A DNA stretch of 22,817 nt, taken from positions 1-22,817 of IMG/VR virus record IMGVR_UViG_3300042445_002558. The stretch is one strand, 5' to 3'. A program made the translations under genes and the position numbers. The stretch is from a virus. Positions within the stretch are counted from its first letter, which is position 1. The number at the start of each line of letters is the position of its first letter. Of this stretch, positions 1,841 through 18,912 are shown piece after piece. The notes beneath the pieces are model-generated. The model was not told the DNA's origin. It saw nothing but the letters and a program-made list of their open reading frames with translations, and made no database searches.

Positions 1841-2386
1841 ATGACTGCAAATATTAAAGATATTATATCTAATACAAAAGAAATTTTCATGACTGACAGT
1901 AGTCTTGACACTTTATTAAATTTTGAACGAGTATTAGATGAATTAGATCTATACGCATTTAAGAATTGGAAACAAGGGGAATTAGTACAAGGTCCGATTT
2001 ATGAGAAATATTTTATTTCTTGTACATTTATGTGGCCTTATAAAATGATGCCTGATCCAACTGGTGGCGCACGATTACTAGGATATGATTGTGAAGTAAC
2101 ATATCAAAAATCTGTATTAAAGCATCCAACTGAAGTTAACAGTCCATCTGATTTCAGACCAGGCGGCAGAATGCCTAACATGGCAAAAAAACCAATTTGG
2201 TTGGTTACTATAGTAATTCCAAAGAAGTTAATGCAAGATATTCATCAAGGTAGTTTGGAATTAGAAGGTAGTAAAATAGATCTAGAAGATATTGAACAAG
2301 CATATGAAACTGGTGATGATCAAGATAATGGTGTACAATCAGACCAAGAAAGTACAGAGCAGGAACAAGGACAGCCAAATGTTTAA
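1841..2386 (+). CDS. Conserved-type T4-like phage protein of unknown function
   Basis: The product is 181 residues. Its core (about 25-135) includes LDLYAFKNWKQGELV, the cysteine/aromatic stretch SCTFMWPYKMMPDP and a strand WLVTIVIPKKLMQDI, followed by an acidic, glutamine-rich tail (residues 150-181) likely disordered. I associate this arrangement with an uncharacterised protein of marine T4-like phages but cannot assign a role. A second ATG at 1889 (MTDSSLDTLLNFERV) would shorten it by 16 residues and may be the true start, because the core begins just after it; neither ATG has a clear ribosome binding site. It overlaps the next gene by 8 bases, so the two are probably co-translated. Confidence 0.6.
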   Translation: MTANIKDIISNTKEIFMTDSSLDTLLNFERVLDELDLYAFKNWKQGELVQGPIYEKYFISCTFMWPYKMMPDPTGGARLLGYDCEVTYQKSVLKHPTEVNSPSDFRPGGRMPNMAKKPIWLVTIVIPKKLMQDIHQGSLELEGSKIDLEDIEQAYETGDDQDNGVQSDQESTEQEQGQPNV

Positions 2387-2942
2387 TAAATTAAATGAAA
2401 ACTTAGAACATGGTGATCTAAAACGGCTAATGCATACTGAACTTCACATTGATGAATTTAAAAGTAAGATGGGAGATGATGCTGATATATGTGTACTTAG
2501 TTTTAAAATAGGTGGAAAAGAACCAGCTGCTGATCTGATAAACTTTATTGAAAAAGGATATGATTGGATATTAGATGCAGATGTTAGTTCTGGAGAAAAA
2601 GAAGATGGCGATTATTTAGTATTTGTAGAATGTGATCGTACTCCTGAATTACCCGAAAAAATAGTTAATTTAATGTCCGATATTATGAACTTGACTAAAC
2701 AAGACCTGGAAGAATGGCGAGTAAGCTATCAGAGCTCTACAGCTGACCATCCAATAACTATTGAAACATTAACTAAGATAATCCCACTAACTGTTAAGAA
2801 ATATAAGAAAAAATATGAGAAGGAAGAAGATACTCCTTTAGATCTTAATAAACTTAAAACGGCCGCGGGATTAACAGTAGACACAATGGCACCAATAAAT
2901 GAATACACCGAAAGTTTAAGGATTGCAGCCGGAATCAGATAG
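2379..2942 (+). CDS. Phage protein of unknown function ending in an AAGI-type motif
   Basis: I start this gene at ATG 2379 (MFNKLNENLEHGD), giving 187 residues and an 8-base overlap with the gene before; an in-frame ATG at 2292 would create an 87-base overlap across the acidic tail of its neighbour and is unlikely. The protein is acidic, with strands such as ICVLSFKIGG and DYLVFVECDR, a lysine-rich segment (VKKYKKKYEKEED, near residue 140) and a C-terminus with two related words, AAGLTVD and IAAGIR. No catalytic motif is visible. The close coupling with 1841-2386 suggests a shared, perhaps structural or assembly, role, which is inference from context only. Confidence 0.6.
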   Translation: MFNKLNENLEHGDLKRLMHTELHIDEFKSKMGDDADICVLSFKIGGKEPAADLINFIEKGYDWILDADVSSGEKEDGDYLVFVECDRTPELPEKIVNLMSDIMNLTKQDLEEWRVSYQSSTADHPITIETLTKIIPLTVKKYKKKYEKEEDTPLDLNKLKTAAGLTVDTMAPINEYTESLRIAAGIR

Positions 2943-3026: not shown

Positions 3027-3875
3027 ATGACAGATTACTATCAATTATTAGGCGTTAATCGAAACGCCACACCCGCAGATATTAAAAAGGCCTATCGAAA
3101 ATTAGCTACACAACATCATCCTGACAAAGGTGGTGACACTGCAAAGTTTCAAGAATTGCAAAAAGCATATGAAACTTTGCACGATCCGTCTAAACGTCAC
3201 GAATATGATAATCCTCATAACCAACAACCAGGTGGGCATCATACTCATTTTGAATTTAATTTTGGTGGTGCACCTAACGATATCTTTAGTCAATTTTTTA
3301 GTCAAGGATTTCCAGGACAACAACATCCTTTTCAACAACATTCTCAGCCTCGGAAAAATAAGGATTTAAGAACAACGATTTCTGTAACTCTAGCTAGTAC
3401 ACTAGAAAATCAAAATAAAACTATAAATGTACAATCAACTAAAGGCGATACATTTACAATACATGTATCTATTCCACAAGGAGCAAGTGACGGAATTACT
3501 ATAAAGTATTCCGGAATGGGAGATAATTTCTTTGAAACATTGACTCGTGGGGATTTATATGTTATTATAAACGTAATAGCTGATAATAATTTTCAAATAC
3601 ATGGTACTAATTTAGTAACTAATTTAGAAATTGATAGTATGGAAGCTATGCTCGGAACTGAAAAAGAAGTTACTGGGTTAGACAATAAAACTTATCTTAT
3701 TAACATTCCACCTGGGTGTCAATATGGTACTAAATTTGGGCTCAACGGACAAGGATTGTGTAATTTAAATAATCCTATACGTGGAGACCTAATAGTTAAT
3801 ATTTTAATTAAAACTCTAATATTAACACCAGACCATGATATTCAGTTACGTAAACTATGGGCTAATATAAATTAA
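3027..3875 (+). CDS. DnaJ-like co-chaperone (J-domain, no zinc finger)
   Basis: Residues 1-62 form a J-domain (DYYQLLGVNRNAT, AYRKLA, and the HPD tripeptide at 31-33) that stimulates the ATPase of Hsp70/DnaK. A glycine/phenylalanine/glutamine/histidine-rich linker follows (about 65-112). Residues 115-280 resemble the two beta-sandwich substrate-binding domains of class II DnaJ/CbpA proteins (KDLRTTISVTL, TIHVSIPQGASDG, RGDLYVIINV, INIPPGCQYGT, RGDLIVNI). The cysteine-rich zinc finger of class I DnaJ is absent. No DnaK is present in the window, so it would recruit the host one. It precedes a ClpA-like unfoldase by 4 bases, making a chaperone operon. At 282 residues it matches CbpA-type length. 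Confidence 0.9.
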   Translation: MTDYYQLLGVNRNATPADIKKAYRKLATQHHPDKGGDTAKFQELQKAYETLHDPSKRHEYDNPHNQQPGGHHTHFEFNFGGAPNDIFSQFFSQGFPGQQHPFQQHSQPRKNKDLRTTISVTLASTLENQNKTINVQSTKGDTFTIHVSIPQGASDGITIKYSGMGDNFFETLTRGDLYVIINVIADNNFQIHGTNLVTNLEIDSMEAMLGTEKEVTGLDNKTYLINIPPGCQYGTKFGLNGQGLCNLNNPIRGDLIVNILIKTLILTPDHDIQLRKLWANIN

Positions 3876-3879
3876 AAAT

Positions 3880-6177
3880 ATGAAAGATATGATAACTCCA
3901 AATCCTGAGATAGAAGAAATTATTTCGGTTGCTTGTGATCTTGCTAAAAGTTATAATCACGAATATGTTACAGTAGAACATCTATTAGTAGCATTATTAA
4001 CCTTTAAAAGTTTTAATAGATTACTAGTTGATTACGGTGTTAATACAAAAGAATTAACTGGAGAATTATGTGACTATATTTCAAATCAGGACCATTTAGT
4101 TAACTTAGCAGATGGAATTATTCCTAAGAAAACTCATGCTCTTGAACGAGTATTTAATCGTGCATTTACACAAGTATTATTCAGTGCAAGAAGCAATATA
4201 GAAACAATTGATTTATATCTAAGTATTACTCAAGAAACTAATAGTCATGCGGCATATTACTTACTTAAATGGAATGTAAATAGAAAGGAATTAATTAGTT
4301 TTTACAATCAAATTAATCAAATTCCTAATGCTAAAACTGTTGGCTCTAAAAAATCTTGGGAAGATGATATACTAAATGAATATTGTACTAACTTAAATCA
4401 AATAGTTAAAGAAGACAAAATTGATCCTGTAATTGGTCGTGAATTTGAACTAGCTGAAATTGCACAAGTACTAGCTCGACGTAGTAAAAGTAATGTTTTA
4501 CTAATTGGCGATCCTGGAGTTGGCAAAACTGCAATAGCAGAAGGACTAGCGTATAAAATTGTACATAACGATGTTCCAGAATATCTTAAAGATTATGTGG
4601 TACATAATCTTGAGGTTGGCAGTTTAGTTGCTGGCTGTAAATATCGTGGTGAGTTTGAAGAAAAACTAATTGATGTACTTGATGCGTTATCTAAAAAAGG
4701 TAAATGTATTTTATTCATTGATGAAGCACATCAAATTAAAGGTGCTGGCGCAGGAAGTTCAAGTTCAGTTGACTTTGCTAATATTATTAAACCTTACTTA
4801 TCAAAAGGTAGTATACGATTAATTGCATCAACAACATGGGAAGAATACACTCAAAGTTTTGAAAAGGATCGTGCATTAATGCGTCGATTTTATAAACTTA
4901 ATATAGATGAACCTACTCCTGCTATTGCAAAAGATATACTATTAGGATTACGTCAACATTTTGAAAAATTCCACGGTGGCACTATATCAGATGAAGCAAT
5001 TGACGCCGCAGTTGATTTAAGTGTTAGGTATCAACCAGATCGAAGATTGCCTGATAAAGCTATTGATTTAATTGATATGAGTTGTGCAAAACTTAAAATT
5101 ATTAATCCAGTCTTTGTAGTTACAAAAGATACAATTGTTGAAACTATTAGTAAAGCAACGAAGATTCCATTAGATACATTTGCTGATGAAAGTTCTAGCA
5201 ATCTTGAACAATTAGAAAGCAGTATTAAAGATAGATTATATGGACAAGATACTGCAATTGATGCAGTACTTGAAAAGATATATGTATCTAAAGCTGGATT
5301 AAAATCTGTTAATAAACCAATTGGTAATTTCTTATTCTTAGGCCCAACTGGCACAGGTAAAACTGAACTAGCTAAGTTGTTAAGTGAAAACTTAAGTATG
5401 AAATTATTAAGGTTTGATATGAGTGAGTATCAAGAAAAACATTCATTATCTAAATTGATTGGTGCACCACCGGGATATGTAGGGTATGAAGATTCAAATC
5501 TAGCAGGTGGATTGTTAATTTCTGAAGTTGAAAAGAATCCATATTGTATTATTTTATTAGATGAAATAGAAAAAGCACATCCAGATATTAGTAATATCTT
5601 ATTGTCAATTATGGATGAAGGTATGATTACTGGTAGTAATGGCAAGAAAGCAGATTGTAGACATGCTATACTGATATTAACAAGTAATTTAGGTGCAACT
5701 GATAACGAACGTAATAATATTGGATTTGGTCGTAGTTTAGAAAAAGATGGCGAAGATGATGATGCTGTTAAAAAATTCTTCAAACCTGAGTTTCGTAATA
5801 GATTGGATGCAGTTATTAAGTTTAATAAATTAGATAAGATTTCAATGAAGAAAATTGTTGTTAAGTTTATTAATGATCTTAATGACTTATTGGGTGAGAA
5901 ATTAATTAAGGTCAGACTTACTGAGTTAATGGTTGACCATTTAGTTGAAACTGGCTTTGATAGTAAAATGGGAGCAAGACCATTATCTCGTAAAATTAAT
6001 GACATTATTAAAGTACCATTGAGTAAGAAAATATTGTTTGAAAAAATAGCAGATTCAAGTACAATAACAGTTGATTATCAAAATAAAAAGGTTATATTTT
6101 CTGTGGTGGAACCACTGCAAATGGAATTATTAGAAAATAAAACAGTTGACGAGAATGGCTACATTGTAGTAGAATAA
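3880..6177 (+). CDS. clpA: ClpA-type double AAA+ unfoldase with IGF loop
   Basis: An N-domain (residues 1-150, including [13 protein letters not shown]) is followed by two AAA+ modules. The first has DPVIGRE, Walker A GDPGVGKT near 210 and Walker B ILFIDEAH near 275. The second has GPTGTGKTE near 490, [10 protein letters not shown] near 530, Walker [14 protein letters not shown] near 560 and FRNRLD near 635. There is no room for the long coiled-coil middle domain of ClpB, so this is ClpA-like. NNIGFGRS near 613 occupies the place of the ClpA/ClpX loop that inserts into ClpP pockets. A degradation-linked unfoldase using the host ClpP is therefore plausible; no clpP or clpS is in the window. 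It is likely co-transcribed with the dnaJ-like gene. The symbol is by family, not orthology. Confidence 0.92.
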
Positions 6178-6234: not shown

Positions 6235-6402
6235 ATGGCAAAGTTACACGAAGAAGTGTTAGTAATCAAAGTTAGTAAATTAGTTAAAGATACGGAAAAT
6301 GTTGGTGCTATTATATTAGATGCCGCATCAATGTTAAGTCTTGAAGCAGTTGTACAAGAATTAGCTGGTGCAGGTGTTCTAGTAGAAATCGAAGCGGCAT
6401 AA
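6235..6402 (+). CDS. Small conserved-type phage protein, 55 residues
   Basis: A 55-residue ORF (start MAKLHEEVLVIKVSKLV, end LVEIEAA) preceded by AGGA at 6225-6228, seven bases from ATG, and by a late-promoter-like box. It looks like a compact alpha/beta domain: strand EEVLVIKVSKLV, a hydrophobic helix around residues 23-43 and a final strand GVLVEIEAA. I have the impression of similar small proteins in other T4-like marine phages but can assign no function. Good ribosome binding site, regular codon use and position directly before the glycosyltransferase support it as a real gene. Confidence 0.7.
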   Translation: MAKLHEEVLVIKVSKLVKDTENVGAIILDAASMLSLEAVVQELAGAGVLVEIEAA

Positions 6403-7680: not shown

Positions 7681-7710
7681 ATATAGTAATAAAATTGAGT
7701 ATTACTATAT
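7681..7710 (+). promoter_or_regulatory. Hairpin covering the start codon of the adenylyltransferase-like gene
   Basis: ATATAGTAATA (7681-7691) and TATTACTATAT (7700-7710) are perfect 11-bp reverse complements around the loop AAATTGAG. The first two bases of the ATG at 7709 belong to the 3' arm. The stem would hide the translation start in the mRNA, and no Shine-Dalgarno sequence is visible. A run GTTTTT follows, so an AU-rich, weak terminator is an alternative reading. Confidence 0.6.
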
Positions 7711-8341
7711 GTTTTTAACTGAATTATTTGAAGCAAAAACTAAAGATATTGTTGTAGTTTATCCTGGCCGCTTTCAACCTTTTCATAAAGGACACAAAGC
7801 AGTTTATGACTATCTATGTAGAAATTATGGTGCAGATAAAGTTTTTATTTGCACCAGCTCCAAAGTAGAAATGCCACGTAGTCCTTTTAACTTTCAAGAA
7901 AAGTTAGAGATGATAAAATTAACTGGCATTAATCCAAATAGAGTTGTTCAATCATCTCAGCCATATCGTGCTCAAGAAATAATAGCAAATTACGATCCTT
8001 CTAATACGATATTACTGTTTGCAGTTAGTGCCAAAGATATGGCTGAAGATCCCCGTTTTAAATTTAGTCCCAAAAAAGATGGCAGTCCAAGTTATTTTCA
8101 AGCTCTACCAAAGAATCTTAATCAGACAGAAACATCTGATAAACATGCTTATATCATAACAGTTCCTACATTTGAATTCAATGTATTAGGAAAACCTATG
8201 CAAAGTTCAACTGAAATCCGATCTCAATTTGCAACAGTTGATGAAAATACTAAAAAATTAATTATTAAAGATTTATTTGGTTCATTTAATGATATTGTGT
8301 ATAATATAATGTCATCTAAGATAACAGAACATTCTAATTAA
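7709..8341 (+). CDS. NMN adenylyltransferase-like nucleotidylyltransferase with T4 Alt-like leader
   Basis: IVVVYPGRFQPFHKGH at residues 14-29 contains GRFQPxHxGH, the signature of the nucleotidylyltransferase superfamily that binds ATP and transfers AMP; a partner motif SSTEIRSQF near 166-174 matches the (I/S)SSTxIR loop. Together these point to an NMN adenylyltransferase or close relative (NAD synthesis), although pantetheine-phosphate or cytidylyl transfer cannot be excluded. The first residues, MFLTELFEAKTKD, precede the catalytic strand and resemble the T4 Alt leader MELITELFDED, with LFE as a possible gp21-type cleavage site. This suggests packaging in the head, by inference. The start codon sits in an 11-bp hairpin. 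The stop overlaps the next start (TAATG). Confidence 0.8.
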   Translation: MFLTELFEAKTKDIVVVYPGRFQPFHKGHKAVYDYLCRNYGADKVFICTSSKVEMPRSPFNFQEKLEMIKLTGINPNRVVQSSQPYRAQEIIANYDPSNTILLFAVSAKDMAEDPRFKFSPKKDGSPSYFQALPKNLNQTETSDKHAYIITVPTFEFNVLGKPMQSSTEIRSQFATVDENTKKLIIKDLFGSFNDIVYNIMSSKITEHSN

Positions 8342-8640
8342 TGCATCCTATAGAGTTTTTAGTTGAAATACATTGTTTGTACGTTGAACCTAATAGCCGA
8401 TATCGAATCTATGCTAATAATAATTTATTAGTAGAACGTACATGGCGATGGGGTACAAATATATATATTGAAGAAAATATTTGGTTAAATCTTAATCTTG
8501 GATTTGAAAATATTATCAAAATTGAATCATTATCTATTCATAAATCATTACCTCCATTTATATTAAAAAATTTTAAGATTATTGATCGTCCGATTAATAT
8601 AACGTCAAATACTAATCTTGCAGTTAGTTTTGTAATATAA
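8341..8640 (+). CDS. Small beta-rich phage protein with capsid-leader-like start
   Basis: The 99 residues read as strands: FLVEIHCLYVEPNSRYRIYANNNLLVERTW, NIYIEENIWLNLN, NIIKIESLSIH, PFILKNFKII. The pattern 'RYRIY.NN.LL.ERTW' suggests a small beta-sandwich found beside similar proteins in phages; no catalytic motif. The start MHPIEFLVE fits the (E/D)F(I/L)xE leader pattern seen across this region, but here that segment could also be simply the first strand of the fold. It overlaps the preceding gene by one base (TAATG). Function unknown. Confidence 0.6.
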   Translation: MHPIEFLVEIHCLYVEPNSRYRIYANNNLLVERTWRWGTNIYIEENIWLNLNLGFENIIKIESLSIHKSLPPFILKNFKIIDRPINITSNTNLAVSFVI

Positions 8641-8646
8641 TAAATA
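8638..8646 (+). promoter_or_regulatory. Late-promoter-like box TAATAAATA
   Basis: An exact TAATAAATA overlaps the stop of the previous gene and ends 22 bases before ATG 8669. A run of closely packed genes from 8669 to 14360 follows with no obvious further box, so this could drive a long late transcript. Confidence 0.55.
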
Positions 8647-8668
8647 CAATATACTAACGGAAACGTAC

Positions 8669-8845
8669 ATGAAATCATCAGAATTTATTAAACAATTAAA
8701 CGAATATGGCAGTTGTGGCGGCACAGCAACTGGCTCTATAGCTACTGCACCTGGTGTTAGCCAAGGTCCAGAAGTTGGATCATTATTTGGCGGTAGTTAT
8801 GAACAACCTAAGACTCCAGCTAAGAAAAAATCTAGGAAGAAATAA
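8669..8845 (+). CDS. Small Gly/Ala/Ser-rich protein with capsid-targeting-like leader
   Basis: A 58-residue ORF begins MKSSEFIKQLNEYGSCGG and ends with a basic tail KTPAKKKSRKK. The first 12 residues resemble the T4 internal-protein leader (MKTYQEFIAE), with LNE as a candidate cleavage site for a gp21-type protease. The middle (GGTATGSIATAPG, SLFGGSYEQ) is low complexity and the lysine-rich end could bind DNA, fitting a small packaged head protein. It lies after a late-promoter-like box, has a CGGAA word upstream, and shares the base A of TAATG with the next gene. Function is inferred only from these features. Confidence 0.65.
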   Translation: MKSSEFIKQLNEYGSCGGTATGSIATAPGVSQGPEVGSLFGGSYEQPKTPAKKKSRKK

Positions 8846-9945
8846 TGGAAATGAAGAAATTATTAGAAACAATTGACACTATGAGCAAGGCTGAAAAAAA
8901 GCCCGAAGGCGCTGAATTTAAGGGTTATTGGAAAGGCACAGATAAAAGTCCGCCTAAACCCGGACAAAGTGTAGGCGGTTGTAAAGAAAGTAAAAATCCT
9001 AACATAATGCGAGATTTAAAATCTGTTGCTGATGATAAAGAATTAGAATGGAAGTTGTCGGAAGAATTTGAGTTATGGGAAGACAATTTAGGTGTAGAAG
9101 AAAAACGCCCGCATCGTTCTGGCTCACGTGAAGAAAAGTTTGGACAACGTGGTCATAAAGAAAAACCATGTTATGCTACTAAATGGCCATTTGTTAATGA
9201 TGAAAGAAAATCTGATGTAAAAGAAGAAGAAGATAAACCAGCTAATCAATATTATAATCCTAATCCACAAACTCCTAAAATGATCGGCATGTATTTTTAT
9301 GATGTTCCTGCTGGCAAAGAAGGGTTAGCACGAGCCTCTGGACTTAAACAAACAAAAAGTGGTAAATGGGCAATAACACAATATGATACAAGTGGTGCAA
9401 CATTTAACGATTTAAAACGAAAAGCCGATGTTCGCATTGGTACCGGTAAATGGTGGGCTCCAAAACAAGTATCCGAAGGCGAACATTCTCAAAAGTATAG
9501 ATCAACTATATCAAGTTTTGATAGAATGTCTAAGATGGCTAAGTTAAATACAGAATTACAAAAATTAGCAAAATTAGTAAAAGAAAAGGAAGGGCGTATC
9601 CGGACAAAAACAGAAATTAATGAATTTGGGGCAACTCCTGTTACTCCTCCAATCGGAACAGCCACAGCTAAACCAGCTATAGGTGCACCAGCGGTAGATC
9701 CGGTTCAAGCTAAAAATGTAGCTGCCGCAACTGCAACATTAAAATCTGCAACTAGTAATCCTGCAGCACCAACTGCAATTGCAAAGGCAATTAATAATGC
9801 TTCAACTGGAGCAACAGTTAATGCACAAGATATGAAAGCATTGGCACCAATGATGGGACTTGTAGGACAGGCAGCTCAGGATCCAAAATTAGCTAATCAA
9901 TTTAAATCATTTGCTGTTCAAGCACAACAAGCAATGAAAAAATAA
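8845..9945 (+). CDS. Lysine-rich, Ala-tailed phage protein, likely virion or head-internal
   Basis: The 366-residue product starts MEMKKLLETIDTMSKAEKK, a helical leader with LLE as a candidate cleavage site. Next come a charged region with FKGYWKGTDKSPPKPG, an acidic helix ELEWKLSEEFELWEDNL (near 67-83) and a basic stretch KRPHRSGSREEKFGQRGHKEKP. A small folded-looking segment (about 145-205) contains MIGMYFYDVPAG and KWAITQYDTSG. The last 100 residues are Ala/Pro/Thr-rich, then helical (KALAPMMGLVGQAAQDPKL). The mixture of charged low-complexity and helical parts suits a scaffold or internal head protein. I cannot name it. It is coupled to 8669 by TAATG and followed at 9957 by another leader-bearing gene. 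Confidence 0.65.
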   Translation: MEMKKLLETIDTMSKAEKKPEGAEFKGYWKGTDKSPPKPGQSVGGCKESKNPNIMRDLKSVADDKELEWKLSEEFELWEDNLGVEEKRPHRSGSREEKFGQRGHKEKPCYATKWPFVNDERKSDVKEEEDKPANQYYNPNPQTPKMIGMYFYDVPAGKEGLARASGLKQTKSGKWAITQYDTSGATFNDLKRKADVRIGTGKWWAPKQVSEGEHSQKYRSTISSFDRMSKMAKLNTELQKLAKLVKEKEGRIRTKTEINEFGATPVTPPIGTATAKPAIGAPAVDPVQAKNVAAATATLKSATSNPAAPTAIAKAINNASTGATVNAQDMKALAPMMGLVGQAAQDPKLANQFKSFAVQAQQAMKK

Positions 9946-9956
9946 AGAGAATATAA

Positions 9957-10193
9957 ATGAAATCAACGGATTTTTTAGATACCAATATACAAGTTAATGA
10001 AGATATTAATCAAAAAGATAGTATTCGAATTGATGTACCTTTATTAATTCGCTTATTAGAATATGCACGTGAAGATGCTAAAACCGATTTAGATTTACAT
10101 AATGTTGCAGAAAAATTAATTAATCTCAGTCAAACTGGACATATATTAACGATGAATGACTATACTAAAATTTGTGATACAGAAGGACGATAA
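9957..10193 (+). CDS. Small conserved-type phage protein, 78 residues
   Basis: It begins MKSTDFLDTNIQVNED, a leader-like start, and continues with an all-helical domain: IRIDVPLLIRLLEYAREDAKTDLDLHNVAEKLI, then a short segment TGHILTMNDYTKIC. The regular amphipathic helices suggest a small folded helical domain; no enzyme motif is present. AAAGAG lies just upstream of the ATG as ribosome binding site. The stop is directly followed by the ATG of the glycine-rich adhesin. Function unknown; a head or structural accessory role is only inferred from context. Confidence 0.65.
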   Translation: MKSTDFLDTNIQVNEDINQKDSIRIDVPLLIRLLEYAREDAKTDLDLHNVAEKLINLSQTGHILTMNDYTKICDTEGR

Positions 10194-10973
10194 ATGACTT
10201 TACATATTAAAGCTGCAGGATCATGGAGAAAAGTTTTAGCGGTATCAGTTAAAGTTGCTGGGAGGTGGCGAGATTGTGTTGATGGACTTTATAATGATGA
10301 TGGAACATGGAAATCTTTTTTGTACGAACCAGGTAGTATTGAAACTGATCCACCACCAACGCCTTACACGCCACCTATATTAATAATAGACCCACCTATA
10401 ACAGTTGATCCTTACAAACCAGGTCATTTCCATTCAGATAAACCAGGAACAACTACTTTTGTAGTTCCACTTGGTGTGTTTAGCATAGGTGTATCAGTAT
10501 GCGGTGGGGGTGGAGGAGCAACTGGTTCATCATGGACTGGCGGTGATGCATGTGGCGGATCTGGTGGGGGTGGGGGAGGGACCGCAAGTACGACATTTAA
10601 AGTTATTCCAGGACAAGTTCTTACAATTGTCGTTGGCATTGCCGGAAAAGGTGGTGCAAGTGGTGCCAGTAAAGACGGAAAATCAGAACGCGGTGGTGAT
10701 GGTGGAATATCTAAAGTTACTGGCGGAACTTCAGTTCATGGCGGTGTCGGAGTCTGCTTTGGTTATGGTGGAACTGGTAGTGGAAGTGGTTATCCAAACG
10801 CAATGGGAATGGGAGGAGTGGGTTTTGGAGGTGGTGTTAGTCCCACCAGTGGTGGGAATGGGACACAAGGTGGGGTAGGGAGAAACTATAGTATGGGTGC
10901 TGGCGGTCAGCCTAATGGTGGGGCTGGCAATAGTGGAGACGGCGGAGCTGGCTGGGTTTCGTTGTCATGGTAA
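10194..10973 (+). CDS. Glycine-rich tail-fibre tip / adhesin-like protein
   Basis: The N-terminus has a repeated word, AAGSWRKVLAVSVKVAGRWRDCVDGLY (two copies of aGxWR), seen at attachment domains of phage fibre proteins. A proline-rich spacer (about 55-80) follows. From residue 85 the protein is a beta framework (TTTFVVPLGVFSIGVSVCGG, FKVIPGQVLTIVVGIAGKGG) filled with polyglycine runs (GGGGGATG, GGSGGGGGGT, GGVGFGGGV, GGAGNSGDGGAGW). This matches glycine-rich phage fibre domains and the polyglycine-helix adhesins of the T-even gp38 type, where glycine-rich motifs scaffold variable receptor-binding loops. It probably recognises the host surface, though identity with gp38 is not shown. It is 259 residues. 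Its DNA is far richer in G than the rest of the window. Confidence 0.75.
   Translation: MTLHIKAAGSWRKVLAVSVKVAGRWRDCVDGLYNDDGTWKSFLYEPGSIETDPPPTPYTPPILIIDPPITVDPYKPGHFHSDKPGTTTFVVPLGVFSIGVSVCGGGGGATGSSWTGGDACGGSGGGGGGTASTTFKVIPGQVLTIVVGIAGKGGASGASKDGKSERGGDGGISKVTGGTSVHGGVGVCFGYGGTGSGSGYPNAMGMGGVGFGGGVSPTSGGNGTQGGVGRNYSMGAGGQPNGGAGNSGDGGAGWVSLSW
10841..10857 (+). repeat. GC-rich 17-base palindrome within the adhesin gene
   Basis: TCCCACC (10841-10847), loop AGT, GGTGGGA (10851-10857): a perfect 7-bp G+C-rich hairpin, or an 8+1+8 palindrome, in an AT-rich genome. It lies between glycine-coding G tracts and could favour strand slippage or recombination. Confidence 0.75.
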
Positions 10974-10978
10974 AGTAA

Positions 10979-11356
10979 ATGAGAACAATGTTATTTTATC
11001 CTTGTCGAGCAGATCATGCTGCTGATCCATCACACCAGTTATTTTTAGAAAAATTACTGGGTGTAGAAATTGAAACATACCTAATATTTGAACATCGAAA
11101 TCAGTATGATCATGAACATATCCCTGAATATTTTCCAGGTACTAATATATTAATGCCTAGTACTTGTTGGTGTGATATTCCTGATCATGAGAATCCAAAA
11201 TGGCCAAAATTGCATTTTAGATCCGAAGAGGCAGATGAAATCCAATTTCCAGACTGTACTGAATTTGTTGCGGGCGGCGATGATTTATTTTTATTAGACA
11301 TCGATGAAATTCATACTAAGTATGGAACTAATTTTTCAGGACCTGGTGATTGGTAA
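10979..11356 (+). CDS. Phage protein of unknown function, 125 residues
   Basis: The product (MRTMLFYPCRADHAADPSHQ...) is acidic, with four cysteines (two in CWCD/PSTCWCDIPDH), several histidines and aspartates (DHEHIPEYF, DHENPKWPKLHF) and an end GGDDLFLLDIDEIHTKYG. The Cys/His/Asp content might bind metal, but no recognised zinc motif spacing is present. The name-giving family is not recognised. It lies between the adhesin and the ADP-ribosyltransferase-like gene, with its stop directly abutting the ATG at 11357, so it is part of the same transcription unit. Being placed right after an adhesin it could be a fibre accessory protein, but this is a guess. Confidence 0.55.
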   Translation: MRTMLFYPCRADHAADPSHQLFLEKLLGVEIETYLIFEHRNQYDHEHIPEYFPGTNILMPSTCWCDIPDHENPKWPKLHFRSEEADEIQFPDCTEFVAGGDDLFLLDIDEIHTKYGTNFSGPGDW

Positions 11357-12646
11357 ATGAGAGCACAAGATTTCCTCACTGATGCCAGACGGAACCCCAG
11401 ACTGAATCCTAAGTATAGTGAATTAACACAATTAGAACATATTGAACTTGAGTACAGCACTGAAAATATGTACGTACGATTCGTTGACTTACCAAAGTTA
11501 GGTATTAATCCAAATAGCACATATGGTACACCATTTGGTATTTGTGCATATCCACTTGAATATGTTATTGAAAAAGAACTTGATGTTCCGTTTGCTGGCG
11601 AAATGCCTTATATGGTAGTATTTGAAGATACAGGTGCAAATCTATTACATCTTCATAAACCAAGCACAGAATGGACTCCAGACGATCTTGAGTTAGGTAG
11701 ACGTATGGTACCTATTCTTAAATCAGTATTAAAAACTGATAAACTAGATATGAAGACTGAAAAGCATGATCCACAAGATGAAGATGCAACAGAACGTGAA
11801 TGGAGTCCTGTTTGGTCTTGGATGTATAAGAATATTTTACAATTTAGTGATTATGCTAATAGAGGTAAAACAGCCACAAAAATATTAAAACAATTAGGAT
11901 ATGATGGAGTTCGAGATCCAGGTTACGGTATTATATTCACAGATGAACCTGAACAAACTATATTTTTTAATACATCAAACCTAAAATTAATAGCAAGTAT
12001 TGACCGACATATAAGCGATACTTTTATTGCATATGGTAAACCAAACGACTGGACTAACTATCATCCAAAAGAATTAACTAAAGCAGATACTGCCACAACA
12101 AGAAGCCGTTATAGCAATATAGAAAAGATACAAAAAAACTATGAACGTGAGATGGCATATTATTTTAGAAAACATACAGGCTGGTCATTTGAACAGTTAA
12201 TTCAAAAATATCCTTACTTAATACAATATTATCATTCTGCTACACCACAACAAACACAACATTTTCAAGCTATGGTATTAGCTGATCCAAAAAGATGGGC
12301 AGATAAATATGAATTAATGCCAGTTGATTTTCAAATAAAATTAATACAATCAAATTCTGATAATTTACAATATATTCCCAAAGTTGCTAAAGAAACTATG
12401 ATTGCCGCAGTAAATAAATATCCATTTGCAATTGGTGAAACAAACCGTTATAATAAGCATTGGGAACAAGATACTGATGTACAAATTGCTGCATTAAATA
12501 GTTTTATAGCTAAAAATCGTACAAATCCACATCTACATGAGATATTGATGGCATTTGTTAAGACACAGATTAAATACGGAACACAAGAATTTAGAAATTA
12601 CTTCTTTGATTTAAAAGATCTAAGAAACGAAATCCAAAAAAACTGA
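11357..12646 (+). CDS. ADP-ribosyltransferase-like protein with helical repeat C-terminus and leader
   Basis: It begins MRAQDFLTDARR, a leader-like start. Residues about 30-220 hold features of ADP-ribosyltransferase domains found in phage polyvalent and Alt-like proteins: VRFVDLPKLG, STYGTPFGICAYPLEYV, a strand PYMVVFEDTGA, and a characteristic end LGYDGVRDPGYGIIFTDEPEQTIFFN with the GYDGV...(V/I)FF pattern. The family would move ADP-ribose from NAD+ to a target. Catalytic residues cannot be fixed without alignment. Residues 220-429 are helical and resemble DUF4116-type repeats (VDFQIKLIQSNSDNLQYIPKV, AVNKYPFAIGE). T4 injects the ADP-ribosyltransferase Alt from the head, which makes the leader notable. 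Confidence in the enzyme class is moderate. Confidence 0.55.
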   Translation: MRAQDFLTDARRNPRLNPKYSELTQLEHIELEYSTENMYVRFVDLPKLGINPNSTYGTPFGICAYPLEYVIEKELDVPFAGEMPYMVVFEDTGANLLHLHKPSTEWTPDDLELGRRMVPILKSVLKTDKLDMKTEKHDPQDEDATEREWSPVWSWMYKNILQFSDYANRGKTATKILKQLGYDGVRDPGYGIIFTDEPEQTIFFNTSNLKLIASIDRHISDTFIAYGKPNDWTNYHPKELTKADTATTRSRYSNIEKIQKNYEREMAYYFRKHTGWSFEQLIQKYPYLIQYYHSATPQQTQHFQAMVLADPKRWADKYELMPVDFQIKLIQSNSDNLQYIPKVAKETMIAAVNKYPFAIGETNRYNKHWEQDTDVQIAALNSFIAKNRTNPHLHEILMAFVKTQIKYGTQEFRNYFFDLKDLRNEIQKN

Positions 12647-12654
12647 GGTAAGTA

Positions 12655-13371
12655 ATGGGCGGTAATGTTTTTAAAGATGCACATGGACCAAGTACAGGAC
12701 GTATCAATAAAGCGGATGTTATCACCACAGTTGAATGGTTAGAAAATCTAACCGGACTTAATCTTATTGATAATATGTTAGGTACAACTGGCAAAAAAGA
12801 ATCCAGTGGCGACTTAGATCTTGCAGTTGATGCAGAAAAAATTGATAAACAAACACTAATTGATGTACTATTAAAACGTGGCATTGATACGCAAAGTATT
12901 AAAAAGTCCGGCGATAGTGTACATCTAAAAACTCCAATAAACGGCAATCCTAAAAATGGTTATGTACAAACAGATTTTATGTTTGGAAGACCAGAATGGC
13001 AACATTTTAGTATGACTGGAAGTCCAAACGGAAGTCCGTATAAAGGTATGCATAGACATTTGTTACTTGCTAGTCTTGCTAAATCACAAGGACTAAAATG
13101 GAGTTATAAGAACGGATTAGTTAATAGAGAAACTAATGAAGTTGTTAGTCAAAATCCAAATGAAATTGCACATATATTGTTTAATGGTAATGCGTCAGAC
13201 TTAAATAGTGTAGAATCTATAATTAAAAAAATTAAATCACTTCCAAATTATGAAACATTAGTTGCACAATTTAAAGGTGATCTTGCACGTGATCCGCAAG
13301 GCCCACAATTAGACAATATGTATGCTGAATCTACACAATGGTTCAGAGCAATGGAGAATATACTAAAATGA
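12655..13371 (+). CDS. Pol-beta-superfamily nucleotidyltransferase-like protein
   Basis: LGTTGKKESSGDLDLAVD at residues 42-59 contains the G(S/T)...DxD signature of the Pol-beta nucleotidyltransferase fold (D53 and D55 binding metal), and VQTDFMF at 104-110 supplies the expected third aspartate, D107. The rest (about 115-238) is mostly helical, with HRHLLLASLAKSQGLKWSYKNG near 130. Such enzymes transfer a nucleoside monophosphate to RNA, protein or small molecules; the substrate is unknown here. A GAGGT ribosome binding site at 12645-12649 supports ATG 12655. It has no leader of the kind seen in its neighbours (start MGGNVFKDAHG). It is coupled by ATGA to the next gene. It may act with the ADP-ribosyltransferase-like protein immediately upstream. 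Confidence 0.75.
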   Translation: MGGNVFKDAHGPSTGRINKADVITTVEWLENLTGLNLIDNMLGTTGKKESSGDLDLAVDAEKIDKQTLIDVLLKRGIDTQSIKKSGDSVHLKTPINGNPKNGYVQTDFMFGRPEWQHFSMTGSPNGSPYKGMHRHLLLASLAKSQGLKWSYKNGLVNRETNEVVSQNPNEIAHILFNGNASDLNSVESIIKKIKSLPNYETLVAQFKGDLARDPQGPQLDNMYAESTQWFRAMENILK

Positions 13372-13841
13372 AATTAACTAATTTTATTAGTCAGCAGTTA
13401 CTTATAATGGAAAGTGAATTGGATGACATACTTGCACAACCTACTGCAACTGGACCGAGCAAACTTAAACAAGCGGCAGTTGCTGGTGCTAAAGCAGTAG
13501 GTAAAGTAGCTACCGCAGCTGGGAAAGGAGCAGTTGCTGGTGCTGATACAAGTTTAAATATTGTTAAAAATACAGCTAAAGCCGCTACTAATGTATTAGG
13601 AACATCAGGTGGTATAAAATCACCTGGGCAAAGTGGACATTTTAAAAATGTTGACATCTTTGGAACTAATAACTCTGCAGCAACTAGCAACGACGAAGTA
13701 GAACCAACTTCTTCATCAACTGTATCTAAACAAATGATAGATACTGCTCGTAATGTTACTAAAGGTAAGGTTGCAACAACGCCAACTGATGTGCCCGAAG
13801 TTAATGATTTATTAAAAAAACTGCAAGTATTAAAAAAATAA
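13368..13841 (+). CDS. Ala/Gly/Lys-rich small protein with capsid-targeting-like leader
   Basis: I start at ATG 13368, which overlaps the previous stop (ATGA), rather than the in-frame ATG 30 bases upstream, because the encoded MKLTNFISQQLLIMESELDD is a leader-like start with IME as a candidate cleavage site. The 157-residue product is rich in alanine, lysine, glycine and threonine (AAVAGAKAVGKVATAAGKGAVAGAD), with a Ser/Thr-rich middle and a helical end (EVNDLLKKLQVLKK). It has the look of a small basic internal head protein, comparable in character only to T4 internal proteins. No enzyme motif. A 6-bp hairpin with loop GTATAAAAT sits at 13606-13626. Confidence 0.6.
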   Translation: MKLTNFISQQLLIMESELDDILAQPTATGPSKLKQAAVAGAKAVGKVATAAGKGAVAGADTSLNIVKNTAKAATNVLGTSGGIKSPGQSGHFKNVDIFGTNNSAATSNDEVEPTSSSTVSKQMIDTARNVTKGKVATTPTDVPEVNDLLKKLQVLKK

Positions 13842-13954
13842 TGACAACTGAGCAGTTTGATCAGTTAGAACGAATAAAGGAACAATTTCTTCAGCAAAAA
13901 ACGGTCACTGAAGAATTAGAATTGCCAATGGAACCAGAAAATGAGATCATCTGA
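13841..13954 (+). CDS. Possible 37-residue small protein
   Basis: A short ORF, MTTEQFDQLERIKEQF...ELPMEPENEII, starts on a TAATG overlap with the gene before and runs 14 bases into the gene after. It fills what would otherwise be a 99-base gap, and the acidic, glutamine-rich sequence predicts one amphipathic helix. The one-base overlap typical of this genome argues for it. The very short length and lack of known relatives argue against. No ribosome binding site can be separated from the upstream coding sequence. Confidence 0.45.
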   Translation: MTTEQFDQLERIKEQFLQQKTVTEELELPMEPENEII

Positions 13955-14360
13955 ATTTATAGTAGAATATTTACTTTTTACTGCTAAGACTAAAAACATT
14001 AGGATATTAGTTAGTAGTCATGTAAGAGATCGAGCATTAGAACGTGATATTCCATGGCCTGTCATTAGTGATATGATTTTTAGCATAACTAAAATCACAC
14101 CAAAATTAGAACAAATGCTTAACTTTGATAAATTTTATTTTCGAGATCCAACAAATAATATTGAAATTGGTGCCAGATATCATGCTAACCCAGATGATCC
14201 AAAAGGTATGACTCGTACTTTATTTTTAAATACTGTAATAAATCCAACAGATGTTGATTACACACGCAATTGGATTAAACGAATTATCGTGCCATCTATT
14301 CAGACAAAACAAATAATTGACCCAAACTCCCTTAGGACCGCGACCAAAACAGTTGCGTAG
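13941..14360 (+). CDS. Small unknown protein with strong capsid-targeting-like leader; possible RNase-toxin-like fold
   Basis: MRSSEFIVEYLLF is one of the clearest leader-like starts in the window (IVE as a candidate cleavage site). The body, from residue 20, reads IRILVSSHVRDRALERDIPWPVISDMI, then ITPKLEQML, FYFRDP and a strand LFLNTVINP. The H-x-RDR-x-x-ER-x-I pattern recalls DUF4258/RelE-like small RNA-cutting toxins, where an N-terminal H...R.R segment precedes a helix, but this is a weak resemblance. The last dozen residues (SLRTATKTVA) are encoded by an abruptly G+C-richer sequence that belongs to a hairpin array (14328-14423), so the natural C-terminus may have been replaced. Function unknown. 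Confidence 0.55.
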   Translation: MRSSEFIVEYLLFTAKTKNIRILVSSHVRDRALERDIPWPVISDMIFSITKITPKLEQMLNFDKFYFRDPTNNIEIGARYHANPDDPKGMTRTLFLNTVINPTDVDYTRNWIKRIIVPSIQTKQIIDPNSLRTATKTVA

Positions 14361-14423
14361 GGAAGGCGACTACTGCCTTGAGTAAGTACCGATTCGCTAC
14401 CGGGAATCTCTAAAAGTAGTACT
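14328..14423 (+). ncRNA. Candidate structured RNA element in a G+C-richer patch
   Basis: Three hairpins can be drawn. The first has outer TCCCT (14328-14332)/AGGGA (14359-14363) and inner CGCGAC (14339-14344)/GTTGCG (14352-14357, one G-U pair). The second is AAGGC (14363-14367)/GCCTT (14375-14379), loop GACTACT. The third is GATTC (14391-14395)/GAATC (14404-14408). The loop of the second can pair with AGTAGT (14415-14420), a possible pseudoknot; alternatively AGTAC (14385-14389) pairs with GTACT (14419-14423), enclosing the third hairpin. The patch straddles the end of the gene at 13941 and the 111-base gap before the first amidoligase. It is not a tRNA. It could be a small RNA, a processing or termination signal, or a 5' regulator. 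Confidence 0.4.
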
Positions 14424-14434
14424 AATAATTTTAA

Positions 14435-14443
14435 TAATAAATA
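14435..14443 (+). promoter_or_regulatory. Late-promoter-like box TAATAAATA
   Basis: An exact TAATAAATA ends 28 bases before the ATG of the first amidoligase-like gene; AGGAC at 14461-14465 (reading across CCAGGACATTTCG) is the likely ribosome binding site. The box would start transcription downstream of the hairpin array, so the array would not be in this transcript. Confidence 0.55.
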
Positions 14444-14471
14444 TAGTATATATTATTACCAGGACATTTCG

Positions 14472-14609
14472 ATGCGTTTCAAAGAATTTAAGTTAAATCC
14501 ACTAACTGAAGCGATACTTGATGAAGTATCAATGAGTCCTACTTCTTTGCAAAGATGGGCTGATAGCCCAGATGCCGAAGGCATGTTAATGGGTATTGAG
14601 TTTGAGATG
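14472..14609 (+). repeat. 5' direct repeat, amidoligase copy 1
   Basis: The first 138 bases (ATG to the codon after GIEFE) are nearly identical to those at 16174-16311 and 18913-19050, ending abruptly where the proteins diverge. Each contains GATACTT-GATG-AAGTATC, a 7-bp hairpin (14513-14530 here). Confidence 0.85.
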
Positions 14610-16184
14610 TGTGTACCAGGTGATGGATTTGACAGAGAATCCGAACCTGATTATAGCCATGATCCGTTGGTTTATTCAGTTGAAGAAATATTAGATTTTT
14701 ATGATCAAGGCGAACATTCAGATCTGACATACTATCGCGGTCAAGTTGAACAATCACTTATGGAATTATACCAAAACTGGTATTTTGATGCAATTGGTGA
14801 ATATATTGATAATAATCCCGGAACATTATCAATGTATCTTTTTGAAGAAATTAGTAATCTCATTGATTTTGAGGACTATGTAGACAAAGCCAGAGAAGAA
14901 CTTGGCGATGATGCCCAAGACGAAGATGTACAAAAGTTAGCACATAAATTACACCGAGACGACATCGATACAATCATCAGTGATGAAATGGATATATATG
15001 AAGAAGCATTAGATCTTGTTCGTGCAAGAATAGAAGAAGAAATGCAAGATTCAAGTTTGCTTAGTGAAAAACGATGGCTACGTGATGTAGGTGTATCTCG
15101 TATGACTGATGCAATGGATTTAAATGATTATTTACAATGGCCATTGTTTGAAGATGATGGCGTAATAGAAGGAATAGGTAATGACTTTGCTACAGCAATC
15201 GGCGAACCTGTACATACAAATTCCGGTTATCACGGTAGTGGTAGAGGTAGAGGTCTGTGGATAATTGAACCAGATAGTTCAATTGATTGTGATCATCCTG
15301 ATGATAAGGGATTAGAATTTATTAGTCCACCACAATCAATTAGTGAAACTCTTCGTCAGATGTCAGAATTACACGATTGGGCAAACAGCAAACAATGTTA
15401 TACCAATGAATCTACTGGTTTACATATGAACATTAGTATTCCAGATTATTCAATTGAGAAATTAGATTTTATTAAATTAGCATTGTTTATGGGTGACAAA
15501 TATATACTTGATCAATTTGATAGAACAACTAATTCATATTGTAGAAGTGCAATTGATATTATTAAGAGAGGCACAACATCAGAGAATGTTAACCAAGTAT
15601 TAATTAAGATGCGTCAACATTTAAATGTGGCAGCTAGCAAATTAATACATCAAGGTTGGACAGCAAAATATACAAGTATTAATACTCAAGATGGATATGT
15701 TGAATTCCGTGGACCAGGTGGTGATTATTTAAATAAATCAGTTACTGAATTAACTAACACAGCATTACGTTTAGCAATGGCATTAAATATCGCATGTGAT
15801 GAGAATGCTCATAAAGAAGAATATGCTAAAAAATTATATAAATTAATTGCCGTAGCTGGACCTAAAGATAATACCATTGATCTATTTGTTGACTTCACAT
15901 CAGGCAAGTTAAGTCAAGCTGATTTAAAAGCATATCTTAGACAACGTCAAGCAGGTCGTGCAAATCAAAAAGAACTAAAAAATCCTAATGCTAGCAAAGT
16001 TGCTCCAGCTACACATCAAGGTATGTCACAGCCAGGTACATCATGGCATGTAACAAATAATAGTACTGGACAAAGTTCAACTATTTCGGCTAATAATTTA
16101 GAAGATGCTCAATTTGTTGTTAGGACAATGACTGGAATGCCAGTCGACCAATATACTATTACTAGGGCAAACGATGCGTTTTAA
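14472..16184 (+). CDS. Amidoligase-like protein, copy 1
   Basis: The 570 residues start with MRFKEFKLNPLTEAILDEV, a leader-like segment (LTE and LDE as candidate cleavage sites). The rest shows the signature of the COOH-NH2 amidoligase superfamily (glutamine-synthetase-like fold, forms amide bonds using ATP): GIEFEM near 41, WIIEPDSSI near 263, GLEFISPP near 280, STGLHMNIS near 314 and YVEFRGPGG near 409. The long segment 48-260 is acidic, helical and different in each copy. A C-terminal extension ends with one small SWHVTN...VDQYTITRA module. The start sits after AGGAC, copied at the other paralogues. The enzyme could ligate amino acids or peptides to a host or phage target; the substrate is unknown. 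Its last 11 bases overlap copy 2. Confidence 0.75.
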   Translation: MRFKEFKLNPLTEAILDEVSMSPTSLQRWADSPDAEGMLMGIEFEMCVPGDGFDRESEPDYSHDPLVYSVEEILDFYDQGEHSDLTYYRGQVEQSLMELYQNWYFDAIGEYIDNNPGTLSMYLFEEISNLIDFEDYVDKAREELGDDAQDEDVQKLAHKLHRDDIDTIISDEMDIYEEALDLVRARIEEEMQDSSLLSEKRWLRDVGVSRMTDAMDLNDYLQWPLFEDDGVIEGIGNDFATAIGEPVHTNSGYHGSGRGRGLWIIEPDSSIDCDHPDDKGLEFISPPQSISETLRQMSELHDWANSKQCYTNESTGLHMNISIPDYSIEKLDFIKLALFMGDKYILDQFDRTTNSYCRSAIDIIKRGTTSENVNQVLIKMRQHLNVAASKLIHQGWTAKYTSINTQDGYVEFRGPGGDYLNKSVTELTNTALRLAMALNIACDENAHKEEYAKKLYKLIAVAGPKDNTIDLFVDFTSGKLSQADLKAYLRQRQAGRANQKELKNPNASKVAPATHQGMSQPGTSWHVTNNSTGQSSTISANNLEDAQFVVRTMTGMPVDQYTITRANDAF

Positions 16185-16311
16185 AGAATTTAAACTAAAT
16201 CCACTAACTGAAGCGATACTTGATGAAGTATCAATGAGTCCTACCTCTTTGCAAAGATGGGTAGAAGGCCCAGATGCAGAAGGCATGTTAATGGGTATTG
16301 AATTTGAGATG
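16174..16311 (+). repeat. 5' direct repeat, amidoligase copy 2
   Basis: Second copy of the 138-base near-identical unit. Here it overlaps the end of copy 1 by 11 bases; the word GATGCGTTTTAA encodes both the C-terminal DAF-stop and the new MRF. The hairpin is at 16215-16232. Confidence 0.85.
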
Positions 16312-18270: not shown

Positions 18271-18477
18271 ATGAAAGCATATGAATTTATAGTCGAATAC
18301 CAAGCTCCAGACATTGAAGTAGGTGATGAAATAAGAATTGGTAAGTTCAAGAATAGAAAGGCCGAAGTAAAAGGATTTACTAAAGACAACCACAATCAGC
18401 CTGTACTTAAAACTACCAAAGGTGATCAACCGTTATTTAAACCGCGTATTGTTAAACTTATGAAAGATAACAAATGA
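18271..18477 (+). CDS. Small SH3-like phage protein with capsid-targeting-like leader
   Basis: The 68-residue product starts MKAYEFIVEYQAPD, the best match in the window to the T4 internal-protein leader (MKTYQEFIAE), with IVE as a candidate cleavage site. The rest is a compact beta domain: IEVGDEIRIGKFKNRKAEVKGFTKD, then PVLKTTKGDQPLFKPRIVKL. The VGDEIRIGKF...A.V.GF pattern resembles SH3/KOW-like barrels. It follows copy 2 with no gap and overlaps the next gene by ATGA. It is probably a packaged small protein, by inference; its molecular role is unknown. Confidence 0.65.
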   Translation: MKAYEFIVEYQAPDIEVGDEIRIGKFKNRKAEVKGFTKDNHNQPVLKTTKGDQPLFKPRIVKLMKDNK

Positions 18478-18908
18478 ATATTTTTGAATTATTTGATCAA
18501 CCAGTACAATATGATTGGGAAAACTTAGATGATCGTGGCGGAACAGCAACATTTCAGATTGGTGACAATGAGTACCAAGTTATGGTTTATGCTGGCGGAA
18601 CAGATGAAGAATATTATCCTGATGAAGATGAACTACCTGAAGTAGATATTGAATTCTGTCGTATGGTTAACAATAAATGTGTTCAAGATATAACAGGTAG
18701 TGGCAATGCTGGAACAGTTTTTGCTACTATAGTAGCAATTATGCAAGAATATATTAGTAGTCACCCAGTTGGTGCACTAATGTTCTCAGCTAAAGAAGAA
18801 AATCGTCAACAATTATATATGAGAATGATAAAACGATTATTACCTACATGGAAAATTACTCGTAGTGGAGGAAGTTTTTACGCCACACCCCCTTATAACA
18901 GGACCTAA
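18474..18908 (+). CDS. Conserved-type phage protein, acetyltransferase-like end possible
   Basis: It starts MNIFELFDQPVQYD, similar to the Alt-type leader (ELFD). An acidic beta part follows (TATFQIGDNEYQVMVYAGG, acidic DEEYYPDEDELPEVDIEF). The C-terminal half reads GSGNAGTVFATIVAIMQEYISSHPVGALMFSAKEENRQQLYMRMIKRLLPTWKI, where a glycine-rich turn, a helix and a strand followed by R-x-x-LY-x-R-M resemble the CoA-binding half of GNAT acetyltransferases. The resemblance is only in pattern. The whole gene is coupled by ATGA to 18271. Its stop lies four bases before the third amidoligase, whose ribosome binding site AGGAC falls within its last codons. Confidence 0.55.
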   Translation: MNIFELFDQPVQYDWENLDDRGGTATFQIGDNEYQVMVYAGGTDEEYYPDEDELPEVDIEFCRMVNNKCVQDITGSGNAGTVFATIVAIMQEYISSHPVGALMFSAKEENRQQLYMRMIKRLLPTWKITRSGGSFYATPPYNRT

Positions 18909-18912
18909 CACT

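Follow-up and report, generated by a model that had tools for sequence, protein, structure and literature searches.

A dnaJ–clpA gene pair beside virion structural genes, probably part of a scattered set of phage-borne genes for protein quality control

The window, by which we mean the whole stretch of 22,817 bases analysed here (positions 1–22,817 of viral record IMGVR_UViG_3300042445_002558), is a 22.8-kb fragment that includes 3.9 kb of DNA upstream of a clpA gene. The clpA gene is immediately preceded by a dnaJ gene, with two members of virion structural protein families further upstream and a small conserved open reading frame (ORF) directly downstream (Table 1). The first-pass annotation had described this pair as a CbpA-like J protein gene four nucleotides ahead of a ClpA-type unfoldase gene, and ORFs, profiles and alignment agree on that description. 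Two start sites deserve comment: an alternative ATG start of clpA is possible at position 3889, and the real start of the second structural gene, tabulated as the listed ORF, probably lies at about position 2380.

Table 1. Features of the dnaJ–clpA locus, in window coordinates.
Feature	Coordinates	Strand	Basis
Virion structural protein family, upstream neighbour	1841..2386	+	phrog_12928, E 2e-34
Virion structural protein family, upstream neighbour	2292..2942	+	phrog_13138, E 8e-21
J protein, class B, CbpA-like, 282 aa	3027..3875	+	Pfam PF00226 and PF01556; TIGR02349; HPD
Gap from dnaJ stop to clpA start, 4 nt	3876..3879	+	sequence
ClpA-type two-ring AAA+ unfoldase, 765 aa	3880..6177	+	phrog_4871; TIGR02639; AF2 model
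N-domain, approximately residues 8–143	3901..4308	+	E. coli ClpA alignment; PDB N-domain match 8–143
D1 Walker A GDPGVGKT, residues 210–217	4507..4530	+	(near-)invariant in 81 phage sequences
D2 Walker A GPTGTGKT, residues 488–495	5341..5364	+	alignment of 81 phage sequences
D2 pore-1 loop GYVG with 9-residue spacer YEDSNLAGG	5473..5511	+	alignment
IGF tripeptide for ClpP docking, residues 614–616, flexible D2 loop	5719..5727	+	E. coli ClpA alignment
Conserved 55-aa ORF, directly downstream of clpA	6235..6402	+	homologues in 28 loci

The gene order is shared by related viruses. Of 80 viral loci, 76 have a DnaJ homologue that precedes clpA in the same orientation; in the remaining four, the contig ends before dnaJ could show. 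Both structural families occur near clpA in 54 of the 80, and the 55-aa ORF—for which Pfam and PHROG searches returned no match—begins 46–63 nt past clpA in most members of the window's clade. In many of the more distant viral loci, dnaJ and clpA are separated by an ORF of ~160–180 aa with a GLAANQ motif; this motif, together with the annotation of phage Phosso, suggests a peptide deformylase. The dnaJ–clpA pair is probably an operon of a large, aquatic tailed phage, adjoining virion structural genes. A Pfam search for a tail sheath gave nothing above cut-off, a scan for sigma-70 promoters and terminators performed no better than on shuffled sequence, and the T4 late-promoter octamer TATAAATA, also looked for, is absent.

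The dnaJ product consists of a J domain, a Gly/Phe-rich linker and a C-terminal DnaJ_C domain, and it can be aligned with CbpA from end to end (195.6 bits for TIGR02349; 127 bits for CbpA PRK10266). The HPD motif lies at residue 31 and there is no CxxCxG zinc finger, a combination that recurs throughout the phage J homologues (HPD in 73 of 73, the zinc-finger motif in none of 73). By its predicted domains and motifs, the protein is a class B (CbpA/DnaJB-like) J protein, one that keeps the HPD needed for the predicted engagement of DnaK.

The second gene encodes a ClpA-type unfoldase rather than a ClpB disaggregase, as profile searches, alignment, tree and fold search all indicate. Its best NCBIfam match is ClpA (TIGR02639, 805.8 bits; ClpB scores 652.3 bits), E. 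coli ClpA is the top match in a sequence search of the PDB, and the protein matches phrog_4871 ('ATP-dependent protease') over its full length (794 bits; residues 9–742 against profile positions 10–756 of 764). The TIGR02639 score is below the curated cut-off of 993.15 bits; the protein, ClpA-type but from a distinct phage clade, is not classed as the bacterial equivalog. Pfam recognizes Clp_N, AAA, AAA_lid_9, AAA_2 and ClpB_D2-small domains; that is, a Clp N-domain and two AAA+ modules, in which Walker A and B motifs are intact and (near-)invariant among 81 phage sequences. The N-domain retains the residues that align with E. coli ClpA E23, E28, T81, R86, R90 and R131, which we take to be the ClpS contacts. 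The protein is nearly colinear with E. coli ClpA and has no insert between D1 and D2, where ClpB carries a long middle domain; the absence of that domain, as previously claimed for this protein, is thus upheld. A ClpB/Hsp104-type disaggregase was rejected because the middle domain is absent and the IGF tripeptide is present. An AF2 monomer model built with 37 sequences (mean pLDDT 82.5) found its best fold matches in the ClpA chains of ClpAP and the ClpC chain of a ClpCP complex.

The spacer that follows the D2 pore-1 loop is lengthened in the phage proteins. It measures nine residues in 36 phage ClpAs, including that of the window, and six in 34; of 80 further sequences that were checked, mostly from bacteria with few exceptions, 76 have a spacer of five.

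The feature on which most depends is the putative ClpP-docking loop. Residues I614-G615-F616 align exactly with I617-G618-L619 of E. coli ClpA, and ClpB has no such motif. Across the 81 phage ClpAs, every sequence carries [ILVM]G[FM] at this site: G615 is invariant, phenylalanine follows it in 80 (99%), and isoleucine precedes it in 75 (93%). Most of the surrounding positions of the loop (607–630) are variable and interrupted by indels. A near-fixed tripeptide within an otherwise variable loop is unlikely to be a chance motif, and it is the conservation pattern expected from selection for docking. The first-pass identification of a ClpP-binding loop therefore holds. In the monomer model, IGF sits in a low-confidence loop of the second ring, between helices 606–611 and 625–633; as a prediction, the model gives a flexible D2 loop and not a position on the ClpP ring. 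Alignment, tree and model neither set the IGF segment apart from the site expected for docking nor group the protein with ClpB, and contact with ClpP is itself a prediction.

Unfoldases of this kind are widespread among phages. The earlier suggestion that full-length versions are unusual is contradicted by a scan of viral contigs, which returned at least 598 relatives of the window ClpA, and by annotation of the full-length protein in several jumbo phages (PA5oct, Atu_ph07, Phosso, GAP32, CBB, SCTP-2 and Vibrio phage 2.275.O among the named phages). ClpA is highly conserved across most Rak2-like phages (PMC6102473), and it is a core gene of the moraphages, with 24 genomes described (PMC12619734).

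In the ClpA tree, viral sequences form a fully supported clade of 65 of their own, separate from bacterial ClpA. Within it the window belongs to a clade of 14 (SH-aLRT 100), together with the sequences from contigs L002, L007, L008, L020 and L029. The nearest true bacterial ClpAs are ~41–43% identical to the window protein. The two closest matches labelled bacterial (L094 and L095) nest among the phage sequences; the likeliest explanation is that they come from phage contigs binned into MAGs. Acinetobacter phage MD-2021a, by coverage the closest annotated phage match, was not counted as a phage; its flanks look bacterial (argC, aroF and clpS-clpA). The proposed phylogenetic check on whether clpA came from the host lineage thus has a clear outcome: a recent host origin is rejected. 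A passenger clpA, lately acquired from a host and with no phage-specific role, would fit a closest named function of bacterial ClpA, but is very improbable given the separate viral clade, the distance to the nearest bacterial sequences, the lengthening of the D2 pore-loop in the phage lineage and the fixed linkage to dnaJ.

The question that follows is whose ClpP and DnaK these two proteins serve. The first-pass annotation had noted that no ClpP is encoded here. This is correct for the 22.8-kb fragment; as a basis for inference it fails, since a fragment with only 3.9 kb upstream of clpA is uninformative on ClpP, and all five of the informative relatives in the window's clade encode one. We searched 35 longer contigs of relatives with Pfam profiles. 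ClpP (PF00574) was matched in ten, and seven clear ClpPs were retained on inspection; the matches in L088 and L090–L093 are divergent ClpP-like proteins and were not counted as ClpP. The large contigs also carry terminase matches, which support their phage nature.

Two further sets of genes emerge from these contigs. Firstly, a ClpP gene is present in every contig of the window's clade whose sequence reaches 45 kb or more upstream of clpA (L002, L007, L008, L020 and L029), at distances of 45,169, 50,794, 49,422, 46,598 and 50,059 bases upstream; four others of the clade (L005, L006, L010 and L019) end 30–36 kb upstream and are uninformative on this point. All ClpP-positive members belong to a 12-member subclade, and the window ClpA falls outside it. 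Secondly, the three contigs that extend 80 kb or more upstream (G004, G011 and G018) all encode DnaK, Hsp20 and ClpS, 78–93 kb upstream of clpA. The three genes lie side by side, dnaK first, then hsp20 and clpS, and are preceded by the gene for ribosomal protein bS21; in two of the three contigs the stop of dnaK and the start of hsp20 overlap. A faint hint of the host is that the phage DnaKs are at most 74% identical to those of Pseudomonadota, in a comparison where other phyla are unevenly sampled.

The set is not complete in every relative. G009, G013 and G019 have ClpA with 63–160 kb of upstream DNA and no Pfam match to ClpP; in G013 (181 kb) and G019 (338 kb), ClpS and Hsp20 were matched but ClpP and DnaK were not, and in G009 (141 kb) none of ClpP, DnaK, ClpS and Hsp20 was matched. 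A scan in the opposite direction, starting from the phage ClpP, found among the matches listed that nine of 20 long ClpP contigs also hold a phage ClpA, among them all four contigs above 300 kb; three of these listed ClpAs are 72–73% identical to that of the window. Five ClpP-positive contigs above 100 kb, again among the matches listed, have no ClpA in their sequenced part. ClpP–ClpA pairing in phages is common, not universal.

The partner proteins have the features expected of working components. The phage ClpPs are 55–66% identical to E. coli ClpP, with the catalytic triad (S97, H122 and D171) and a mature-type N terminus. The phage ClpP compared with PHROGs and the PDB scores best in PHROGs against phrog_94, 'head maturation protease', but it is a free-standing protein of 206 aa, and the PDB entries most similar to it are genuine ClpPs, matched along the full length. 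L48, F49 and L114 are present in all, and Y62, F82 and I90 in most, with other aromatic residues in the remainder; we take these six positions to form the hydrophobic pocket into which IGF docks. Five of the seven have a 10-residue insertion in the handle. In the phage ClpSs, N34, D35, H66 and L99 are conserved, as are E79 and K84 in most; of these, N34, D35 and H66 presumably make up the N-degron pocket, and E79 and K84 the ClpA-binding site.

We consider it probable that the dnaJ–clpA pair is one locus of a dispersed, phage-borne quality-control set comprising ClpAP(S) and DnaKJ. Judging from its close relatives, the window's own phage probably has ClpP, DnaK and ClpS, and in this lineage ClpP and DnaK are probably supplied by the phage, the host not being the sole source. 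Such a set might operate as follows: (i) DnaJ, partnered by Hsp20 and by a DnaK of phage or host origin, would bind unfolded or aggregated proteins during virion-protein synthesis, and the three would keep overproduced or damaged proteins soluble; (ii) the host would have to provide the nucleotide-exchange factor, since no GrpE was found in the 35 contigs; (iii) ClpA would be fed through its N-domain, either directly or with N-degron proteins delivered by ClpS; and (iv) ClpA would unfold these substrates and thread them into ClpP docked by the IGF loops, the ClpP in this lineage probably being phage-encoded, perhaps together with host ClpP or with host ClpP in its place. Use late in infection is a guess from the neighbouring structural genes, based on this gene position and on the finding that other jumbo phages express bS21 late (PMC9723584).

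A stronger version, to which we give only limited credence, is that the phage runs a near-complete private DnaKJ-Hsp20-ClpAPS network beside that of the host, with phage-specific changes, and thereby steers folding and destruction during infection. The changes in question are the longer D2 pore-loop region, the ClpP handle insertion, and the re-pairing of genes as dnaJ-clpA and dnaK-hsp20-clpS. If true, this virus-borne system for ATP-dependent proteolysis would be unusually complete.

The interpretation originally offered was that the phage contributes specificity through DnaJ and ClpA, so that host ClpP and DnaK destroy or refold proteins of the phage's choosing, such as regulators or defence proteins. 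The docking loop and the HPD motif are intact, as redirection of host partners would require; precedent exists in the J protein Rki of phage RB43, which acts on host DnaK (PMC3486835), and it has been proposed that jumbo-phage ClpS supplies host ClpAP with substrates (PMC7824862). Where ClpS and Hsp20 occur without detectable ClpP or DnaK, as in the relatives G013 and G019, host ClpP is plausibly the better guess. What finds no support is the argument that the partners must be the host's because the phage has none: every nearest-relative contig long enough to tell has its own (ClpP in five of five, DnaK in three of three). No result suggests that the substrates are host regulators or defence proteins, possible though these are. 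The underlying observation is sound and the host-redirection interpretation over-specific; as an account of the window, we regard it as unlikely.

Less likely still is that ClpA and DnaJ act mainly as virion-assembly chaperones, remodelling head or tail proteins without proteolysis. Such a role has been proposed for jumbo-phage ClpA (PMC7824862), and it suits the structural-gene context in the window and in PA5oct, as well as the tail sheath stabilizer gene that adjoins clpA in GAP32 and Vibrio phage 2.275.O. However, a docking tripeptide conserved within a variable loop is hard to explain without ClpP, and ClpP co-occurs with ClpA.

Phage ClpA and DnaJ are often listed in jumbo phages. Relatives with the full ClpP/ClpS/DnaK/Hsp20 set and those without detectable ClpP or DnaK offer a natural comparison, one that asks whether a phage ClpA has its own peptidase, borrows host ClpP, or serves in remodelling only. 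The individual parts are already known: phage versions of ClpA, DnaJ, DnaK, Hsp20, ClpP and ClpS are all on record, and proteostasis control has been suggested for bS21 phages. In the literature, mostly non-subscription, we found no description of (i) the nearly constant distances that separate the ClpP, DnaK-Hsp20-ClpS and DnaJ-ClpA loci in this clade, or (ii) the lengthened D2 pore-1 spacer and the ClpP handle insertion.

The closest known phages are those of phrog_4871. Like the window, GAP32, CBB, PA5oct, Atu_ph07, Phosso and SCTP-2 encode full-length ClpAs, although these are only 37–43% identical to that of the window; the IGF loop is present in the aligned members Atu_ph07, PA5oct and Phosso, and in several of the phages clpA likewise lies in a structural-gene context. 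Atu_ph07 and PA5oct share the position of dnaJ just upstream of clpA, and in PA5oct the pair is flanked by structural proteins identified by mass spectrometry. In Phosso, unlike in the window, a peptide deformylase gene separates the two, and in GAP32, Vibrio phage 2.275.O and SCTP-2 dnaJ is not adjacent to clpA. Some moraphages, for which mostly Bacteroidota hosts are predicted, resemble the window's relatives in having DnaJ, DnaK and HSP20; the accessible portion of that report does not name ClpP or ClpS among their genes (PMC12619734). In freshwater jumbo phages with bS21, chaperones and Clp protease have been noted as proteostasis control, with genes for Hsp20 and Clp proteases lying no more than ten genes away from bS21, which is expressed with the structural genes (PMC9723584). 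In the window's relatives, bS21, DnaK, Hsp20 and ClpS are clustered, whereas ClpP and DnaJ-ClpA lie at separate loci.

E. coli ClpAPS shares with the phage proteins the domain order, the IGL/IGF position, the ClpS-contact residues and the pocket residues of ClpP and ClpS. It differs in that the window ClpA has four extra residues after the D2 pore-1 loop and scores below the NCBIfam ClpA cut-off, that the phage clpA is paired with dnaJ and not with clpS, and that most phage ClpPs have the 10-aa handle insertion. RB43 Rki, like the window's J protein, is phage-encoded and has the HPD motif; it acts on host DnaK and has no generic co-chaperone activity (PMC3486835), whereas the window's nearest relatives encode a DnaK of their own.

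Comparison of the ClpA sequences reveals two points concerning the second AAA+ ring (D2). Firstly, the D2 pore-1 loop and the stretch following it span window positions 5473-5511, and this stretch exceeds its counterpart in almost every bacterial sequence compared by four residues. Secondly, phage ClpAs fall into two length classes for this same stretch. The ClpAs of the two closest 'bacterial' matches, L094 and L095—contigs in Neomarinimicrobiota and Halobacteroidaceae MAGs—nest within the phage clade, and the two are probably phage contigs that ended up in MAG bins. L189 (CAKLQH020000043.1), named Acinetobacter phage MD-2021a, carries clpS-clpA amid bacterial housekeeping genes, and is probably host DNA under a phage label.

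Among viral relatives, the handle region of the phage ClpPs of L082 and L084-L087 is extended, past the catalytic His, by an insertion of 10 residues; ClpPs with this insertion have very many relatives on viral contigs. In many distant relatives (L024, L027, L037-L078), dnaJ is separated from clpA by a peptide-deformylase-like ORF. An annotated peptide deformylase occupies the same position in Sinorhizobium phage Phosso. This arrangement may point to a connection with the processing of protein N termini and with N-degrons. Large relatives (L174 and L175) carry a bS21, DnaK, Hsp20, ClpS cluster, in which the dnaK stop overlaps the hsp20 start.

Features of the window and of two large relatives (window coordinates unless a locus is named)
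Feature	Position	Remarks
Conserved 55-aa ORF (MAKLHEEVLVIKVSKL...)	6235-6402	Directly after clpA
Cytidylyltransferase-like (NMNAT-like) protein	7709-8341	Leader MFLTELFEAK, same style as other downstream ORFs
Three tandem paralogues	14472-16184, 16174-18270, 18910-20586	Common leader MRFKEFKLN(P/L)LTEAILDEVSMSPTSLQRW
Small protein, zinc-protease-like motif HELVHYKQGTEH	20600-21019	
bS21, DnaK, Hsp20, ClpS cluster	L174 3897-6969, L175 4497-7600	Large relatives

Homologues of the 55-aa ORF were found at 28 loci, and family searches with it returned no known family; its product is a candidate for an adaptor or a substrate of ClpA. Two of the three tandem paralogues match Amidoligase_2 (PF12224); homologues of these paralogues are scarce around the clpA genes of relatives. 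The small protein encoded downstream of them gives matches to Peptidase_M78 and to a phage metalloprotease, both weak. The T4 late-promoter octamer TATAAATA does not occur in the window, versus a mean of 5.5 occurrences in shuffled sequences.

Many of the ORFs 3' of clpA (window 7709-20586) begin with a short N-terminal leader of a common style; examples include MRSSEFIVEY, MKAYEFIVEY, MRAQDFLTDA and MRFKEFKLNPLTEAILDE. A loose leader pattern matches 13 ORFs in the window, versus 12% of the ORFs of relatives. The leader-bearing products may be packaged into the head and subsequently injected; the leaders are similar to the capsid-targeting sequence of T4.
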